A stretch of DNA of 64,000 bases from Pedococcus bigeumensis (lineage in GTDB: Bacteria; Actinomycetota; Actinomycetes; Actinomycetales; Dermatophilaceae). The translations under genes were made by a program, and so were the position numbers. Location of the stretch: NCBI RefSeq assembly GCF_006438965.1, contig NZ_RCZM01000001.1, positions 559,097 to 623,096 on the forward strand, given 5' to 3'. This document shows positions 17,389 to 42,035 of the stretch, piece after piece; the first letter of the stretch is position 1; each line of letters begins with the position of its first letter. The notes beneath the pieces are model-generated. The model did not search any database. It worked only from the letters and a program-made list of their open reading frames with translations, and was not told the origin of the DNA.

Positions 17389-18777
17389 TCAGATCGTCTC
17401 GGCGGCGAGCGGGGAACCGCGCCGGGCGTACACGGCATACGTCGTGATGGCCATGAGCAGGTAGGCGGCGATGAAGACCCACAGCGCTGGGACGAGAGAG
17501 CCGTACTGGGCCTTGGCCATCGCGAACCCGCGGGGGATGAAGAAGCCCCCGTAGGCGCCGACAGCACCAGCGATCCCGATGCACCCGGCTGCCGTCTTGC
17601 GCGCGATGGGCAGGCGGTCCGCGCTGACCCCGGCCCGGAACACCGCTGGGATCATCCGGTAGGTCGCGCCGTTGCCGATTCCGGCGCCGACGAAGAGCAC
17701 GAGGAAGGAGCTGAAGAAGACCGCGAAGCTGTGCGACGTGAGCCCCTCGATGGCACCCACGGCCCCGAGGGCGAGGAGCACGAACGAGCCGATCGTCACG
17801 CGGGCTCCACCGAACCGGTCAGCGACGATTCCGCCGAGCGGCCTGGTGAGGGCCCCGATCAGTGCGCCGAGGAACGCGATGGTCGTCGGCGTCTCGGGGA
17901 ACTGGGTCTTGAGCAGCGTTGGGAAGGCCCCCGAGTAGCCGATGAACGACCCGAAGGTGCCGATGTAGAGGAACGAGATGATCCAGGTGTGCCGGTTGCG
18001 GGTGGCCGCGGCGAAGCTGCCGTAGTCGGCCTTGACGCCGGTCAGGTTGTCCATGCCGCGCCAGGCGAGCACCGCAGCGAGGATCGCCAGCGGGATGAAC
18101 ATCAGGCCGGCTCGTTCGAGGTGCGTGCCGGCGCCGATGGCGATCACTGCCGGCACGACCAGCTGGACGAGACCGGTGCCGAGGTTGCCCCCGGCGGCGT
18201 TGATCCCGAGGGCCTTGCCCTTCTCCGCCTCGGGGAAGAAGAACGAGATGTTCGTCATCGAGGAGGCGAAGTTGCCGCCGCCGAAGCCCGCAAGGGCCGC
18301 GCAGCCGAGCAGCAGCCCGAACGACGACGACGGATCGCTCACCACCCAGGCGAGGGCTGACGCCGGGATGAGCAGGAGCAGTGCCGAGATGATGGTCCAG
18401 TTGCGGCCGCCGAAGCGCGGGACGGCGAAGGTGTAGGGGATCCGCACGGTCGCGCCGACCAGGCTGGGCACGGCGATCAGCCAGAACTGCTGATCCAGGG
18501 TCAGGCTGAACCCGGCCGCTGGAAGCAGAGGGACGACGACGCTCCAGAGGGCCCAGACGCAGAAGCCGAGGAACTCGGCGAGGACGGACAGGCTGAGGTT
18601 GCGTCGCGCGATCGACCGCCCACCTCCGCGCCAGAACGTCGGGTCCTCAGGGTCCCAGTGGTCGATCCACCGGCCCGACCGATGGGTCGGCGCTGCGGTG
18701 GTGGCTGGCGTGGGGGCAGCCGGGCTCACCGGTGCCGTGGTCGTCGCGGAATCGCCGGAGGTCAGGTTCGTGGTCAC
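17389..18777 (-). CDS. narK: Nitrate/nitrite transporter, major facilitator superfamily
   Basis: Imports nitrate and/or exports nitrite; first gene of the nitrate assimilation operon. The 462 residues comprise a Pro/Thr/Ala-rich N-terminal tail of about 55 residues and about 12 membrane segments. NarK nitrate signature-like stretches are GFGGGNFASSMTNISFFFP and GAGIGNGATYRMIPAVF. The GTG at 18777 lacks a strong Shine-Dalgarno. The 133-bp region upstream contains the candidate GlnR-type site listed separately. Confidence 0.94.
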   Translation of the reverse strand: MTTNLTSGDSATTTAPVSPAAPTPATTAAPTHRSGRWIDHWDPEDPTFWRGGGRSIARRNLSLSVLAEFLGFCVWALWSVVVPLLPAAGFSLTLDQQFWLIAVPSLVGATVRIPYTFAVPRFGGRNWTIISALLLLIPASALAWVVSDPSSSFGLLLGCAALAGFGGGNFASSMTNISFFFPEAEKGKALGINAAGGNLGTGLVQLVVPAVIAIGAGTHLERAGLMFIPLAILAAVLAWRGMDNLTGVKADYGSFAAATRNRHTWIISFLYIGTFGSFIGYSGAFPTLLKTQFPETPTTIAFLGALIGALTRPLGGIVADRFGGARVTIGSFVLLALGAVGAIEGLTSHSFAVFFSSFLVLFVGAGIGNGATYRMIPAVFRAGVSADRLPIARKTAAGCIGIAGAVGAYGGFFIPRGFAMAKAQYGSLVPALWVFIAAYLLMAITTYAVYARRGSPLAAETI

Positions 18778-38445: not shown

Positions 38446-38736
38446 ATGAGCGACAACAGCACGAGCAAGCCGTCCAGCGAGCGCAGCAAGTCGGTCGACC
38501 AGATCGAGGCCGACATCGCCGCGGCGCGGGAGCGCCTCGCGGGCACCGTCGACGAGCTGCACACCCGCACGGCGCCGCAGGAGATCGCCCGCCGGCAGGT
38601 CGAGTCGGCCAAGACGAAGTTCACCGAGGCGACCCGCACCGAGTCCGGTGACCTGCGCACCGAACGCATCGCGGCGCTCGCTGCCGCCGCTGTCGCGCTC
38701 ATCGGGTTGGGCGTCGTCCGACGCCGTCGCGGCTGA
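38446..38736 (+). CDS. DUF3618 domain protein
   Basis: A 96-residue protein with the DUF3618 pattern SVDQIEADIAAARERLAGTVDELHTR (helical, charged) followed by one C-terminal membrane segment (IAALAAAAVALIGLGVV) and a basic RRRRG end. GAGGAG precedes the ATG. It is 36 nt after bcp and may be cotranscribed. Role unknown; the family occurs in actinobacterial envelope contexts. Confidence 0.85.
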   Translation: MSDNSTSKPSSERSKSVDQIEADIAAARERLAGTVDELHTRTAPQEIARRQVESAKTKFTEATRTESGDLRTERIAALAAAAVALIGLGVVRRRRG

Positions 38737-38781
38737 GTCCCACGCGGCCGGCTGCGGACCGAGGTCGCGCCACGGCACACG

Positions 38782-38827
38782 GAGGTGAGGTATGCCGCGG
38801 GGCCAGCCCCACGGCATACCTCACCTC
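38782..38827. terminator. 21-bp hairpin containing two GTATGCCG motifs
   Basis: A 46-nt inverted repeat with 21 base pairs, one C-A mismatch and a 2-nt loop; each arm includes the dispersed octamer. It lies between the convergent DUF3618 and rhodanese genes and touches the rhodanese stop codon, so it is a likely bidirectional terminator. Confidence 0.7.
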
Positions 38828-39308
38828 AGCCGGCGACCGGCAGACCCGCCTCGCGCCAGGCCCGGAATCCGCCGACCACGTCGGTGGCCCGGCGAATCCC
38901 CAAGCGGAGCAATGCGTCCGCTGCCAGTGACGAGGTGAAGCCCTCCTGGCACAGGACGAGCACGCGGGTGTCGTAGGCGGCGATCGGGAGACGCGCCTCG
39001 TGCCGCGGGTCGAACCGCCACTCGAGCACGTTGCGCTCGACGGCCAGCGGGCCGAGAGGGGCCGCGACCTCACCCTCGAACGCACGCTGCGTCACGGGCC
39101 GGATGTCGACGAGCACGCCACGGCCGTAGAGCACCTCCTGGTAGGCCCCGCGCGCGCTGACCCGGTCCAGCCGGCTGCGGGCGTCGGTCAGCTGGTCGTC
39201 GATGCCCGCATAGGTGGGGGCTTCCCAGCCGCGGCCGCTCGCCGGTGCTGGCGTAGCCGTCGGGTCGCTGAACAGCCGCGTCTCCCAGTGCACGGTCGGG
39301 GCGCTCAC
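38826..39308 (-). CDS. Rhodanese-like domain protein
   Basis: A single rhodanese domain of 160 residues, probably a sulfurtransferase. It has the early GVLVDIRPVTQRAFEG segment and the active-site loop VLCQEGFTSSLAADAL with the catalytic Cys, ending with VVGGFRAWREAGLPV. The GTG at 39308 overlaps the cysteine dioxygenase stop by GTGA; another GTG lies one codon upstream. Pairing with cysteine dioxygenase points to cysteine sulfur turnover. Confidence 0.9.
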   Translation of the reverse strand: MSAPTVHWETRLFSDPTATPAPASGRGWEAPTYAGIDDQLTDARSRLDRVSARGAYQEVLYGRGVLVDIRPVTQRAFEGEVAAPLGPLAVERNVLEWRFDPRHEARLPIAAYDTRVLVLCQEGFTSSLAADALLRLGIRRATDVVGGFRAWREAGLPVAG

Positions 39309-39790
39309 CACTGCTCACCCGCCTTTTCGACACTGGTCTGGCGAAGCGTGGTGTCCAGCAGGGCGTAGCGGGTCATGCCGCGCAGGGCGGGGGAGTAGAC
39401 GTGGACGGAGAGGGCGGGTCGGTCGCCGAGGTTGGTCACGTTGTGGATGTGGTGGGGACCGAACGAACGGCCCTCGCCCTCCCAGAGGTAGCGGTCGTGG
39501 GCCGCGTTGCCCGACCACGACTGCTCGGCCAGGTCGCCCTTGACGGTGAGGAAGGCTCCCTCGGACTGGAGGTGGTCGTGCCAGCCGGTCGAGGACCCGA
39601 CCGGCCAGCGGATCAGCCAGATCTCGAGGTGGTCGGTGGCATCGAGCCGGTGCCAGCTGCGCTCGGTGGCGTCGAGGTCGACCTCGCGTTCGAGGTCGGG
39701 GTCGGTGGCGAACAGCCGTGCGGTGCGCAGCAGCTGGCTACGGGTGAAGCGGTTGACGCCGGGAGTGCCGGCGGTGGTGATGGCGGTCAT
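39305..39790 (-). CDS. Cysteine dioxygenase family protein
   Basis: Cupin enzyme of 161 residues that likely oxidises cysteine (or another small thiol such as 3-mercaptopropionate) to its sulfinate. Iron ligands are in STGWHDHLQSEGAF and HHIHNVTNLG. ATG at 39790 follows AGGAGAG. The 450-nt region upstream to the histidine kinase holds a polycysteine leader frame, and a second open frame ending in CPRMCC overlaps this start, so cysteine-responsive translation control is plausible. Confidence 0.9.
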   Translation of the reverse strand: MTAITTAGTPGVNRFTRSQLLRTARLFATDPDLEREVDLDATERSWHRLDATDHLEIWLIRWPVGSSTGWHDHLQSEGAFLTVKGDLAEQSWSGNAAHDRYLWEGEGRSFGPHHIHNVTNLGDRPALSVHVYSPALRGMTRYALLDTTLRQTSVEKAGEQW

Positions 39791-39998
39791 GGTGTCTCTC
39801 CTGCTCGTGAGTCTGGGTCGAAGTGTCGGAATGCGGCGCGTGGCAACACATTCGGGGACACAGCGATCCCTGCGTCAGGAGCAGGTCGAGGTGGATGCGG
39901 TGGTATGCCGCGTGGCTGAGAAGGGGTGAAGCCATGGGTTCGTCTCCGGTTCGGGCGGCGCGCTCACAGAGGTGCGCCGGGGCTGGTGCGGGCTGGGG

Positions 39999-40079
39999 TC
40001 AGGCGCAGCAGCAACACCGCATGGCGCCGCCGCACATGGAGCCCATGTGCATGCGGAACGCCGCGGTGGTCGAAGACAT
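39999..40079 (-). CDS. Polycysteine leader peptide, candidate cysteine-responsive attenuator
   Basis: A 26-codon frame upstream of cysteine dioxygenase, too short for normal gene calling. It is Met-rich (six ATG codons) and ends MRCCCCA-stop: four consecutive Cys codons directly before the end, plus one earlier Cys. The frame ends 208 nt before the dioxygenase ATG. Internal ATG codons at 40052 or 40019 could be the real start. Polycysteine upstream frames acting as cysteine-sensing attenuators are known in mycobacteria; the same role here is inference. No clear Shine-Dalgarno or TANNNT hexamer was found. The rest of 39791-40241 shows no other convincing gene. Confidence 0.6.
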   Translation of the reverse strand: MSSTTAAFRMHMGSMCGGAMRCCCCA

Positions 40080-40241
40080 GGCACCAGTGCAGCACGAGGT
40101 GCGGGGAGCCGTCCACGGGGAAGGGTCCCGTCTCGCAGATCGGACCATGCGGTGGGTCCGTTCGACGCGTCCGGGTCAGGCTGGGCGACTCTGCATCGTC
40201 AGTTCGTCACGGGCGTTGGGAACCTCGTGGATCTGACTACC

Positions 40242-42035
40242 TCAGGAGGACGTTCGATTGGCGGCGCTGAGTGCGCGTCTCGCGGAGATGTACTTCTCGT
40301 TGTCGGGTACCTGCCAGGCCTGTGGCGCGAGATCTTCTGCCTCGGCGGGTGCCAGCGGAAGGCGGATCACGAACGTGCTCCCGGAGCCGTAACTGCTCTG
40401 GACCGTGATGGTTCCGCCCATCAGCTGAGTCAGCTCCTTGCAGATTGCCAGACCCAAGCCACTACCGCCGTAGTTCCGGGTCGTGGACCCGTCGACCTGG
40501 TTGAACGACGCGAATATCGAGTCCTGGTCCTGCGCCCGGATCCCGATGCCCGTGTCGTCGACGCTGAACCTGACCACCTTGCTCGCACTGCCATCCCCGG
40601 CGGCGGTCGTTTCCGGGCCGACCGCGAGGGTCACCTTGCCTTGATGGGTGAACTTCAGCGCGTTGTCGAGCAGGTTGGTGAGAACTTGGAAGAGTCGCGC
40701 AGGGTCGCCGACGACCAGTTGCGGTAGTCCCGGGTCCAGGTGGCACTCGAATCCGATTTCGACCTGTGCCGCCCGTGGCCCGTACACGTCCGCCGCATCT
40801 TCAATCATGGCGTGGAGGTCGAACGTCTTGGGGGACAGCTCCAGCTGACCTGCCTCAATTCGGGAGAAGTCGAGAACCCCCTCGACCAGCGTCTTGAGCA
40901 TCTCCCCCGAGCGGTGCATCTTTCCCAGCAGCTTGAGCTGGAGGGTGTTCAGGGGTGTGTCTTCCAGGATCTCGGCCGCAGCGAGCACGGTCGTCAGTGG
41001 TGTGCGGATCTCGTGACTCATGTTCGCCAAGAACATCGACTTGGCACGGGAGGCCTCAAGAGCCGCGTCCCGCGCCTCTTCCAGTTCTCGATGTGCGTGC
41101 TCCTCGGAGCGGAGCAACCGCGCGGTCCGTACGAACGCCAGCGCCACGACCGCTGTAGTGCCGATGAACAGCTGCAGCGGGTCGTCCGGCGCCCCACGGA
41201 GGTGAGCGATGAGCTCAAGGGCCGGAGGCGCCAGGAGAGGACACACCGCGACCATGAGCTGAGGCACCCGACCGCCGGTCGACGAGTCTGCAACCTCGGT
41301 GGTCTCGAAACCGGACCGCCATGCAGCGCGGGCCATGAGGACGGGAGCAACCATCCACGCGGGGTCCAGCCAGGTCTGCTGGAACGAGCTGCTTGGTTCC
41401 AACATGTAGGTGATGTCGGCGGCCAGCCACAAACAGGTTCCCACCGCGAACGACATGCCGGTGGCAAGACGGGCACCCCGGCTCATCAGGGTGCGGACCA
41501 CCAGCGCAAGCAGGACGGCGTCCGCAATCGGGTACGCCGCCCAAACCGTGCGCACGAAGGGCGCGACGCTGTGGTCAGCCACGATGGGCCCAACGGAAAA
41601 GCTCCACATGGCCAGCACGCTGACGACGATGATGGTCCCCGCGTCGACGACGAGGTCCATCTCGGCCCTGGCGGGGCTCGCCCCACGACCCGTCACGAGC
41701 ACCCGCCATAGTGCCGCGCAAAGGACGACGTAGGCGGCGAACCAGGGCGGGTCCGCAATCGACACGTCCGTACCGGCGCCCAGCTCGTCGAGCAGGGTCC
41801 ACAGAGCGTCACCCAGCGCTGTCAGGAAGAGTCCTGCGGCGATCAGTCGCGGCACCAGTTGCTGTCCACGTGGTGCGCGCGCCGCGCCGATCCACGCGCC
41901 CACGCTGGCGCCCACCAGGACGCCGAGGTAGCAGAAGGAGACGAGCGCATCGTTGTCCGAGACCACGTGGACCAGGACTGCCGCGGCGACGGCGAGCGCC
42001 AGAGCGCCGCTCGCCAGCCGTGTCCTCGTGACCAT
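40242..42035 (-). CDS. Membrane sensor histidine kinase, orphan
   Basis: A 597-residue kinase. About 290 residues at the N-terminus form seven or eight membrane segments with no recognised ligand domain. A short coiled-coil-like stretch (SEEHAHRELEEARDAALEASRAK) links to the phosphoacceptor region FLANMSHEIRTPLTTVL. The ATPase has NLLDNALKFT (N box), VDDTGIGI (G1) and YGGSGLGLAICKELTQLMGG (G2). The H-box style is that of hybrid-type kinases, but no receiver domain or response regulator is adjacent. Base composition and the absence of GTATGCCG set it apart from the flanking core genes. Confidence 0.9.
   Translation of the reverse strand: MVTRTRLASGALALAVAAAVLVHVVSDNDALVSFCYLGVLVGASVGAWIGAARAPRGQQLVPRLIAAGLFLTALGDALWTLLDELGAGTDVSIADPPWFAAYVVLCAALWRVLVTGRGASPARAEMDLVVDAGTIIVVSVLAMWSFSVGPIVADHSVAPFVRTVWAAYPIADAVLLALVVRTLMSRGARLATGMSFAVGTCLWLAADITYMLEPSSSFQQTWLDPAWMVAPVLMARAAWRSGFETTEVADSSTGGRVPQLMVAVCPLLAPPALELIAHLRGAPDDPLQLFIGTTAVVALAFVRTARLLRSEEHAHRELEEARDAALEASRAKSMFLANMSHEIRTPLTTVLAAAEILEDTPLNTLQLKLLGKMHRSGEMLKTLVEGVLDFSRIEAGQLELSPKTFDLHAMIEDAADVYGPRAAQVEIGFECHLDPGLPQLVVGDPARLFQVLTNLLDNALKFTHQGKVTLAVGPETTAAGDGSASKVVRFSVDDTGIGIRAQDQDSIFASFNQVDGSTTRNYGGSGLGLAICKELTQLMGGTITVQSSYGSGSTFVIRLPLAPAEAEDLAPQAWQVPDNEKYISARRALSAANRTSS

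Follow-up and report, generated by a model that had tools for sequence, protein, structure and literature searches.

Conserved, structured leader frames precede a cysteine dioxygenase-rhodanese operon in Pedococcus bigeumensis and its relatives

Introduction

Cys-rich leaders of Mycobacterium smegmatis act by cysteine-dependent attenuation according to the available parts of two reports (PMC9031893, PMC13236596), and the available part of Shell 2015 (PMC4633059) places a mycobacterial Cys-rich short ORF before cysA2. The locus analyzed here, which lies in a 64,000-nucleotide stretch of the Pedococcus bigeumensis genome (the whole stretch is referred to as the window), resembles the mycobacterial polycysteine leaders in that a short ORF with a run of Cys codons close to its stop immediately precedes a sulfur-metabolism operon; its first ORF (ORF1) is probably leaderless, as the mycobacterial leaders are. 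The gene cysA2 is of the rhodanese type, cysteine shortage turns on the targets of mycobacterial polycysteine leaders, and Canestrari 2020 is said to deal with mycobacterial polycysteine short ORFs that are leaderless.

Several features set the locus apart from the mycobacterial polycysteine leaders: the target is a cysteine dioxygenase (cdo), two leaders stand in series, the predicted sequence complementary to the Shine-Dalgarno site (anti-SD) coincides with the first three codons of the leader, and homologs without polycysteine exist. In the accessible portion of Seliverstov 2005 (PMC1262725), the mycobacterial cys regions show no conserved hairpins that could be terminators and the mechanism is left open, whereas here we propose a covarying fold aimed at an SD; cdo goes unnamed in that portion.

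The second ORF (ORF2) is like the putative leader peptides of the cis_reg_atten family NF042934, as this family appears from its own loci, in having an HxDL core followed by Cys and in being a short frame upstream of a sulfur gene. Because the window peptides fall below the cut-offs of both NF042934 and NF042936, the model of the Ms4527A Cys-rich leader, the ORF1-ORF2 pair is a member of neither model and is best filed among the Cys-containing leader ORFs of actinobacteria, as a new variant. In Erm/cat-type translational attenuators, which respond to antibiotics, and in TnaC, which responds to free tryptophan, a ribosome stalled or parked on the leader ORF alters expression of the downstream gene; here, too, a leader-ORF ribosome is proposed to act on the gene behind it, in response to a signal that is only presumed.

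Meanwhile, in the part of PMC8079986 available to us, three of the last nine codons of the leaderless metL leader of Streptomyces lividans, which precedes metNIQ and is described as depending on methionine, encode Cys; this leader may be of the cysteine type. None of the matches listed (the best 15-20 per literature query) describes a cdo leader. Lyubetsky 2014, which by its title reportedly predicts sulfur regulation in genes of other domains, might mention cdo.

Results

Organization of the locus

The leader region and the operon comprise the following elements.

39999 to 40079, minus strand: ORF1, predicted leaderless leader peptide MSSTTAAFRMHMGSMCGGAMRCCCCA, then stop, with homologs at cdo loci
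39738 to 39935, minus strand: ORF2, HxDL-type leader beginning MASPLLSHAAYHRIHLDLLLTQGSLCPRMCC, overlapping the cdo start out of frame
39798 to 39803, minus strand: SD of cdo, CAGGAG
39305 to 39790, minus strand: cdo, enzyme assigned to the type I cysteine dioxygenase family (Pfam CDO_I, 1.5e-18)
38826 to 39311, minus strand: rhodanese-like gene (Pfam Rhodanese), overlapping the end of cdo

ORF1 has 26 codons, ends TGT TGC TGC TGC GCC TGA, and is separated by 208 nt from its stop to the cdo ATG (39790), which agrees in coordinates and sequence with a previous sequence-only reading of a 26-codon frame with four Cys codons, an Ala and a stop 5' of cdo. The same reading had noted a second open frame from 39935 that encodes CPRMCC and reaches the cdo start; this is the ORF2 frame, which indeed continues beyond that start, to 39738.

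By its match to Pfam CDO_I (67.3 bits, gathering score 23), the cdo product is a member of the type I cysteine dioxygenase family. HDH and HHIH (the HxH and the downstream His) are present in the alignment, and the carboxylate-binding Arg of rat CDO has no certain placement in it. The nearest solved chain is 8qfl (1.8e-16), which we take to be an ergothioneine enzyme; as for another substrate, the nearest solved chains were named only cysteine dioxygenase, and the literature matches listed gave no help. The downstream gene matches Pfam Rhodanese marginally (23.0 bits, cut-off 22.2), and, of 85 cdo-like loci of the family, 54 have a Rhodanese match inside the stretch that was fetched. These 85 loci include distant paralogs and some approximate starts, and were counted after removal of L002 and L003, which are the same contigs as L004 and L008.

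Two repeated words were observed in the 64-kb window. The octamer GTATGCCG has 43 copies, against about 1 expected, and GGTATGCC has 24 (for example at 809, 839, 38789, 38820 and 39902), one of them inside ORF2. With a density of about 5 per 10 kb in loci of genus g1 versus 0 in 89 kb of class-wide loci, GGTATGCC is, by these counts, a family-restricted genome word. Two copies lie in a long inverted repeat (38785-38821) between the convergent ends of the rhodanese-like gene and a DUF3618 gene, possibly a terminator without a T run.

ORF1 is conserved at cdo

A conserved MRCCCC end upstream of cdo in relatives had been put forward as a check on the earlier reading, and the genus provides it: cdo was found in all 11 genomes, each time with ORF1 before it, ending in RCCCC in 8, RCRCC in 2 and RCCCHC in 1. 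Beyond the genus, versions of ORF1 at cdo (L014-L017) end in RCCCC in two loci of g42, RCRC in one of g52 and RRCC in one of g6. The codon pattern of the ORF1 end, ATG-MGN-TGY-NNY-TGY-TGY-NNN-TGA, occurs in 8 of 396 genomes of the order, once in each and always at cdo, and the reversed-pattern control had 0 matches in the same 396 genomes. Four successive TGY codons occur at 24 sites in the organism's own genome, two of them overlapping, and ORF1 is the only one that lies at most three codons from a stop and in frame with a start codon.

Across the 85 cdo-like loci, short ORFs whose last 8 codons include at least 3 Cys lie upstream of 23, compared with 2 of 85 on the antisense strand, and leaders recognized by an MS(S/P/L)-type start, a length of 20-30 codons and the promoter Ts were found at 35, versus 0 of 85 antisense and 3 of 1700 shuffles. 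The pattern search, the census of TGY runs, and the start, length and promoter criteria set against shuffles rule out that ORF1 is a chance ORF. Of 32 leaders, 27 have a Cys at codon 22 and 31 have one at 22 or 23, a count from which the g2 and g48 leaders were left out; codon 22 is about 60 nt, or about two ribosome spacings, from the ORF1 AUG.

Both leader types are present at 15 loci (hereafter, the tandem loci), the ORF1 type alone at 21, the HxDL type alone at 9 and neither at 40; L018, with an HxDL leader and no ORF1, stands outside the tandem set. Four loci of the g2 kind (L084-L087), with leaders that start MSS, MSP or VSS and end RCPR before the stop, share the ORF and promoter features and a similar promoter spacing and have no P1 (the helix described below) in their predicted folds; they are counted in the 35 of 85 and among the 21 loci with ORF1 alone. 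ORF1 had no match in NCBIfam or Pfam, and neither did three of its homologs in NCBIfam. Besides, at L020 a single leader, located 139 to 43 nt upstream of cdo and ending in HLDLHLTQGQVCCC before the stop, joins the HxDL motif of ORF2 with a Cys run.

Promoter-like elements and the start of ORF1

No SD site was found for ORF1. The sequence before its ATG was compared across 23 loci, comprising the 15 tandem loci and 8 of genus g18.

40086 to 40091, minus strand: -10-like element TGCACT, preceded by an extended TG, with T conserved at -12 and at -7, each in 22 of 23 loci
40111 to 40115, minus strand: -35-like element TGGAC, with T(G/T)G(A/C/T)C at -35 to -37 in 22 of 23 loci
40130 to 40134, minus strand: GAGAC box, at -55 to -57 relative to the ORF1 ATG and shared by 21 of 23 loci, where an activator or repressor might bind

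In L007 the promoter elements are one base off. The TGCACT element, which is non-consensus at -11, predicts transcription to start at the A of the ORF1 ATG, and since this conserved, correctly spaced promoter-like sequence is combined with the lack of an SD, ORF1 is probably leaderless. Both hexamers depart from consensus and a generic sigma-70 promoter scan gave nothing at these elements, and for that reason the leaderless start is something we infer from spacing.

Predicted RNA fold at the tandem loci

One shape recurs in single-sequence folds, consisting of the helix P1, the hairpin H1 with an inner hairpin, and the hairpin H2; separately, ORF2 codons pair with the cdo SD.

40071 to 40077, minus strand: 5' strand of P1, GUCUUCG, in ORF1 codons 1-3, predicted anti-SD for ORF2 (predicted partner 39942-39948)
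39942 to 39948, minus strand: 3' strand of P1, CGGAGAC, which is the ORF2 SD
40015 to 40068, minus strand: predicted hairpin H1, CACCGC:GCGGUG, with inner hairpin GCACAUGG:CCAUGUGC, showing compensatory changes relative to other genera
39982 to 40012, minus strand: predicted hairpin H2, formed by the Cys codons and the sequence that follows the ORF1 stop
39876 to 39890, minus strand: HLDLLLT codons of ORF2, the predicted partner of the cdo SD

At all 15 tandem loci, at least 3 of the 7 ORF2 SD positions have their most probable partner in nucleotides 3-12 of ORF1. Over these loci P1 has 6.98 expected pairs, against 3.72 when ORF1 is recoded synonymously, and the fold has a mean z of -3.27, negative in 15/15. 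At three loci P1 is weak when taken singly, with equally good recodings numbering 12 of 60 in L009, 23 of 60 in L010 and 7 of 60 in L015. The pairing of the cdo SD likewise exceeds that of synonymous recodings of ORF2 (6.86 versus 2.84 pairs); L017 lacks it, L016 shows little of it (1.99 pairs), and for L001 and L011 between 11 and 14 of 40 recodings do as well. Much of the leader conservation would thus be due to predicted folding, through P1 and the pairing of ORF2 codons with the cdo SD. Taken by themselves, the 15 tandem loci gave no covariation above shuffles, either for the ORF1 fold or for the ORF2-cdo helix, because the sequences are too alike. A known Rfam element was sought as well, and only tRNAs were found in the window at gathering scores.

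ORF2 and the NF042934 leaders

ORF2 carries the HxDL core followed by Cys in 15/15 tandem loci, and its SD is of the type GGAGAC or GGAAGAC; in 14 it extends over the cdo start, that of L016 stopping just short of the start. Five HxDL peptides of relatives were scored against NF042934: the L016 ORF2 reaches 28.3 bits (cut-off 27) and the remaining four fall below the cut-off. The ORF2 of the window has no match, nor are there any NF042934 matches in the window's genome. The family itself was found in 88 of 118 genomes of the class, above the cut-off in 77. Thirty of its loci were fetched, of which 11 were readable to the downstream gene and 19 were not; a Pfam scan behind 8 of the readable 11 returned nitrite/sulfite reductase, APS kinase, CbiX, NMT1-like and SBP_bac_11 domains, as well as PALP (461 nt away) and, twice, luciferase-like domains. 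Given the shared HxDL core with Cys, the L016 score and the position of NF042934 leaders before sulfur genes, ORF2 looks like a divergent cousin of this known sulfur leader family. Neither ORF1 nor ORF2 of the window matched NF042936, against which the L016 ORF2 alone scores (19.4 bits, cut-off 45).

The possibility that HxDL is conserved as a universal anti-SD was ruled out, pairing of HxDL with the SD being 1.48 versus 1.31 over 18 loci with HxDL leaders.

A wider family of cdo leaders and its covariation

A first covariance model (R1), built from the 15 tandem loci, matched just before cdo at the untrained loci L025, L028, L029, L034, L060 and L061 (E 1.5e-6 to 5.1e-5). L065 had an E of 0.011, no better than the best unrelated-looking match (0.0053, window 17552-17691), and the g18 loci gave weak matches from the ORF1 ATG (E 0.0006 to 1.0). 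The leaders found in this way, termed group B and numbering nine with L065, L071 and L074 included, start ATGTCTTCG, as in MSSTATYTAMRLTQRAAMWHRCRV and MSSIATHLTRIADRRPVMWHVCRY, each followed by a stop. They have the start and P1 in common with ORF1, most with one Cys and no run; 8 of the 9 have a single Cys in the last nine codons, and the leader end in other genera is mostly WHxCR(Y/V/L) before the stop. Since this homologous first leader is not polycysteine, the Cys run is apparently a feature of some lineages inside a broader cdo leader. In 8 of the 9 the P1 partner begins 11-17 nt before the cdo ATG, over the cdo SD, and in L060 it begins at -32.

An alignment of 21 sequences was made from the 15 tandem loci and six group B leaders, with L065 and g18 left out by the choice of sources and the E cut. 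In it, 13 pairs changed on both sides, versus 5.7 in shuffles, and the covariation score was 0.212 versus 0.113; 0 of 500 shuffles were as high for either score or pair count, and slid controls gave 0.025-0.059. The two-sided changes fall in H1, the inner hairpin and H2, while P1 has one-sided changes only. This alignment was fitted to the fold model, and a codon-anchored check served as a safeguard: with the strands of H1 placed by counting from start and stop codons, compensation from A-U to G-C and from G-C to A-U was found at two pairs in 6 of 7 group B leaders, the outermost H1 pair being lost in 5 of 7. In g18, P1 takes the form GUCGUCG:CGACGAC, with a U-A to G-C change in 6 of 7, and has 5.50 pairs versus 2.80 for recodings; it is absent in L031, and the 3' strand, some 20-27 nt ahead of the cdo start, falls next to the cdo SD and not on it. 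Taken whole, the g18 fold does not outperform recodings (mean z -0.48).

A second covariance model (R2) matched 30 of 184 family genomes at E 0.01 or better. At cdo, its matches are the 21 training loci, the genomes of L065 (3.0e-9) and L071 (3.1e-7), two of g18 and two of g48 (0.004); four lie away from cdo (G184, G046, G111 and G007:C5, the last being a second match in its genome; E 2.9e-4 to 0.0095), and in three of these four no such leader was seen on reading. The weak g48 matches (L183, L184) are upstream of cdo and lack an MSS start, and both loci have 24-codon frames that end in WHRCR(V/A) and a stop, MHYLTATAPMRAMTRTAAWHRCRV and MFHTAIHQPMRRTARSAMWHRCRA, with Cys at codon 22. Both the conservation of ORF1 and the covariation of the fold are therefore supported.

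Discussion

The ORF1-ORF2 leader region is real, conserved and structured. The suggestion that it is a cousin of the mycobacterial polycysteine attenuators holds in part: the short frame is conserved at cdo, probably leaderless, and embedded in a conserved RNA fold. What has to be revised is that the second frame forms a conserved HxDL-type leader in its own right, and that the homologous first leader of other genera, mostly MSS...WHxCR(Y/V/L) before the stop, carries no polycysteine.

We give an even chance to the view that the region acts as a serial translational attenuator sensitive to cysteine and represents a variant form of the mycobacterial polycysteine leaders, and in this we infer the leaderlessness, the response to cysteine and its direction. 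Transcription would begin at the ORF1 ATG, and ribosomes would load onto the leaderless ORF1. In the resting RNA, the first ORF1 codons are predicted to pair with the ORF2 SD, closing a branched fold that binds up the Cys codons and is backed by the recoding controls and, in its inner helices, by covariation, and a ribosome on the 5' end would free the ORF2 SD, which would mean that ORF2 translation tracks ribosome occupancy of ORF1. In a footprint model, the ORF2 SD is unpaired at 0.08 in the free RNA, 0.10 with a stall at the Cys codons, 0.49 with a ribosome at the AUG and 0.55 with a stall plus an initiating ribosome. The idea that a stall alone opens the ORF2 SD is thus unsupported (0.10 versus 0.08), and, as a lone Cys stall leaves the site closed in the model, the attenuator reading needs a queue. 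When charged tRNA-Cys is scarce, ribosomes would halt from Cys codon 22 on and queue toward the AUG, keeping the ORF2 SD open. At a second stage, the HxDL codons of ORF2 would mask the cdo SD, and a ribosome there or at the next Cys would partly unmask it, the modeled unpaired value going from 0.15 in the free RNA to 0.30 if a ribosome stalls at the first ORF2 Cys and to 0.42 if one sits on HxDL. The predicted net effect is that CDO and rhodanese go up when cysteine is scarce.

The nine group B leaders behave similarly in the footprint model, with a mean going from 0.08 to 0.33 when a ribosome is at the AUG, and two loci of g28, L034 and L061, show the opposite sign. Against the attenuator reading stand this opposite sign, the need for a queue, the lack of covariation above shuffles in the tandem loci alone, the absence of two-sided changes in P1, the loci in which P1 or the ORF2-cdo SD pairing is weak or missing, the g18 results, and the finding that HxDL leaders do not generally pair with an SD. 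In addition, the single Cys near the end of 8 of the 9 group B leaders would make a weak starvation sensor, and the cdo product should consume cysteine. Higher CDO and rhodanese at low cysteine would misfit an enzyme that degrades cysteine, which leaves either sulfur salvage or a reversed sign, in line with the earlier reading, which had offered inverted logic or an enzyme for sulfide and persulfide handling.

With the sign reversed, abundant cysteine or thiol would lead the nascent leader chain to arrest or slow the ribosome near the stop, as TnaC does in response to tryptophan, and the parked or queued ribosome would free the next SD and turn cdo on. The catabolic target fits this alternative, as does the fixed position of Cys from the start with a stop close by; moreover, C-terminal residues (mostly WHxCR) are kept even where the Cys run is missing, which suggests sensing of the peptide rather than of codons. 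We nonetheless regard it as unlikely, as four successive Cys codons in most g1 loci and both g42 loci, together with 4-5 Cys near the end in g18, are a classic sign of tRNA-Cys sensing, HxDL leaders are located before sulfur-assimilation genes, and the polycysteine leaders of M. smegmatis are reported, in the available part of PMC9031893, as cysteine-dependent attenuators.

Alternatively, the control might be transcriptional, with ORF1 translation governing the access of Rho to the C-rich stretch behind the stop and thereby premature termination, instead of masking of an SD. That stretch is conserved (CCCCAGCCCGCACCAGCCCC in L001), Seliverstov 2005 proposed Rho for actinobacterial cys leaders (PMC1262725, in the portion available), and no intrinsic terminator was found, attenuation of the intrinsic kind being dismissed by 0 terminator hairpins with a U run in 38700-40300. 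The C-rich stretch is, however, explained by the pairing of H2 with the Cys codons, and P1 is aimed at an SD, so that we hold Rho-dependent attenuation to be distinctly improbable.

Finally, ORF1 and ORF2 might just bring ribosomes to cdo as a constitutive coupling leader with incidental Cys codons, much as an antenna role is proposed for short actinobacterial leader genes in the part of PMC4833913 available. Modeled SD access does track occupancy of the ORF1 AUG regardless of the Cys codons, and the majority of group B leaders carry a single Cys codon close to their end, but the Cys that 31 of 32 leaders have at codon 22 or 23 and the Cys-rich ends in several genera would then be left unexplained, and we consider pure coupling very unlikely.

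Returning to the cysteine-sensitive attenuator, a more specific version can be sketched, tentatively and as a rather unlikely whole: a two-stage ribosome-queue ruler in which ORF1 codons 1-3 would be the anti-SD of ORF2, Cys codon 22 (23 in some) would sit about two ribosome spacings from the AUG, the queue behind a stall would unlock the SD, two such stages would act in series, and the cysteine dioxygenase-rhodanese pair would work in sulfur salvage, not in cysteine disposal.

The locus would extend leaderless polycysteine leaders beyond mycobacteria, to a cdo operon, and adds to them an RNA fold supported by covariation. It suggests a simple physical rule, with leader codons as anti-SD and a Cys codon at a fixed distance from the start. 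Higher CDO and rhodanese at low cysteine would be understandable for an operon that salvages sulfur from thiols or persulfides and does not serve to remove surplus cysteine. In this sense, the puzzle of a cysteine-sensing leader on a cysteine-consuming enzyme becomes a direct question about the role of bacterial cysteine dioxygenase-rhodanese operons.
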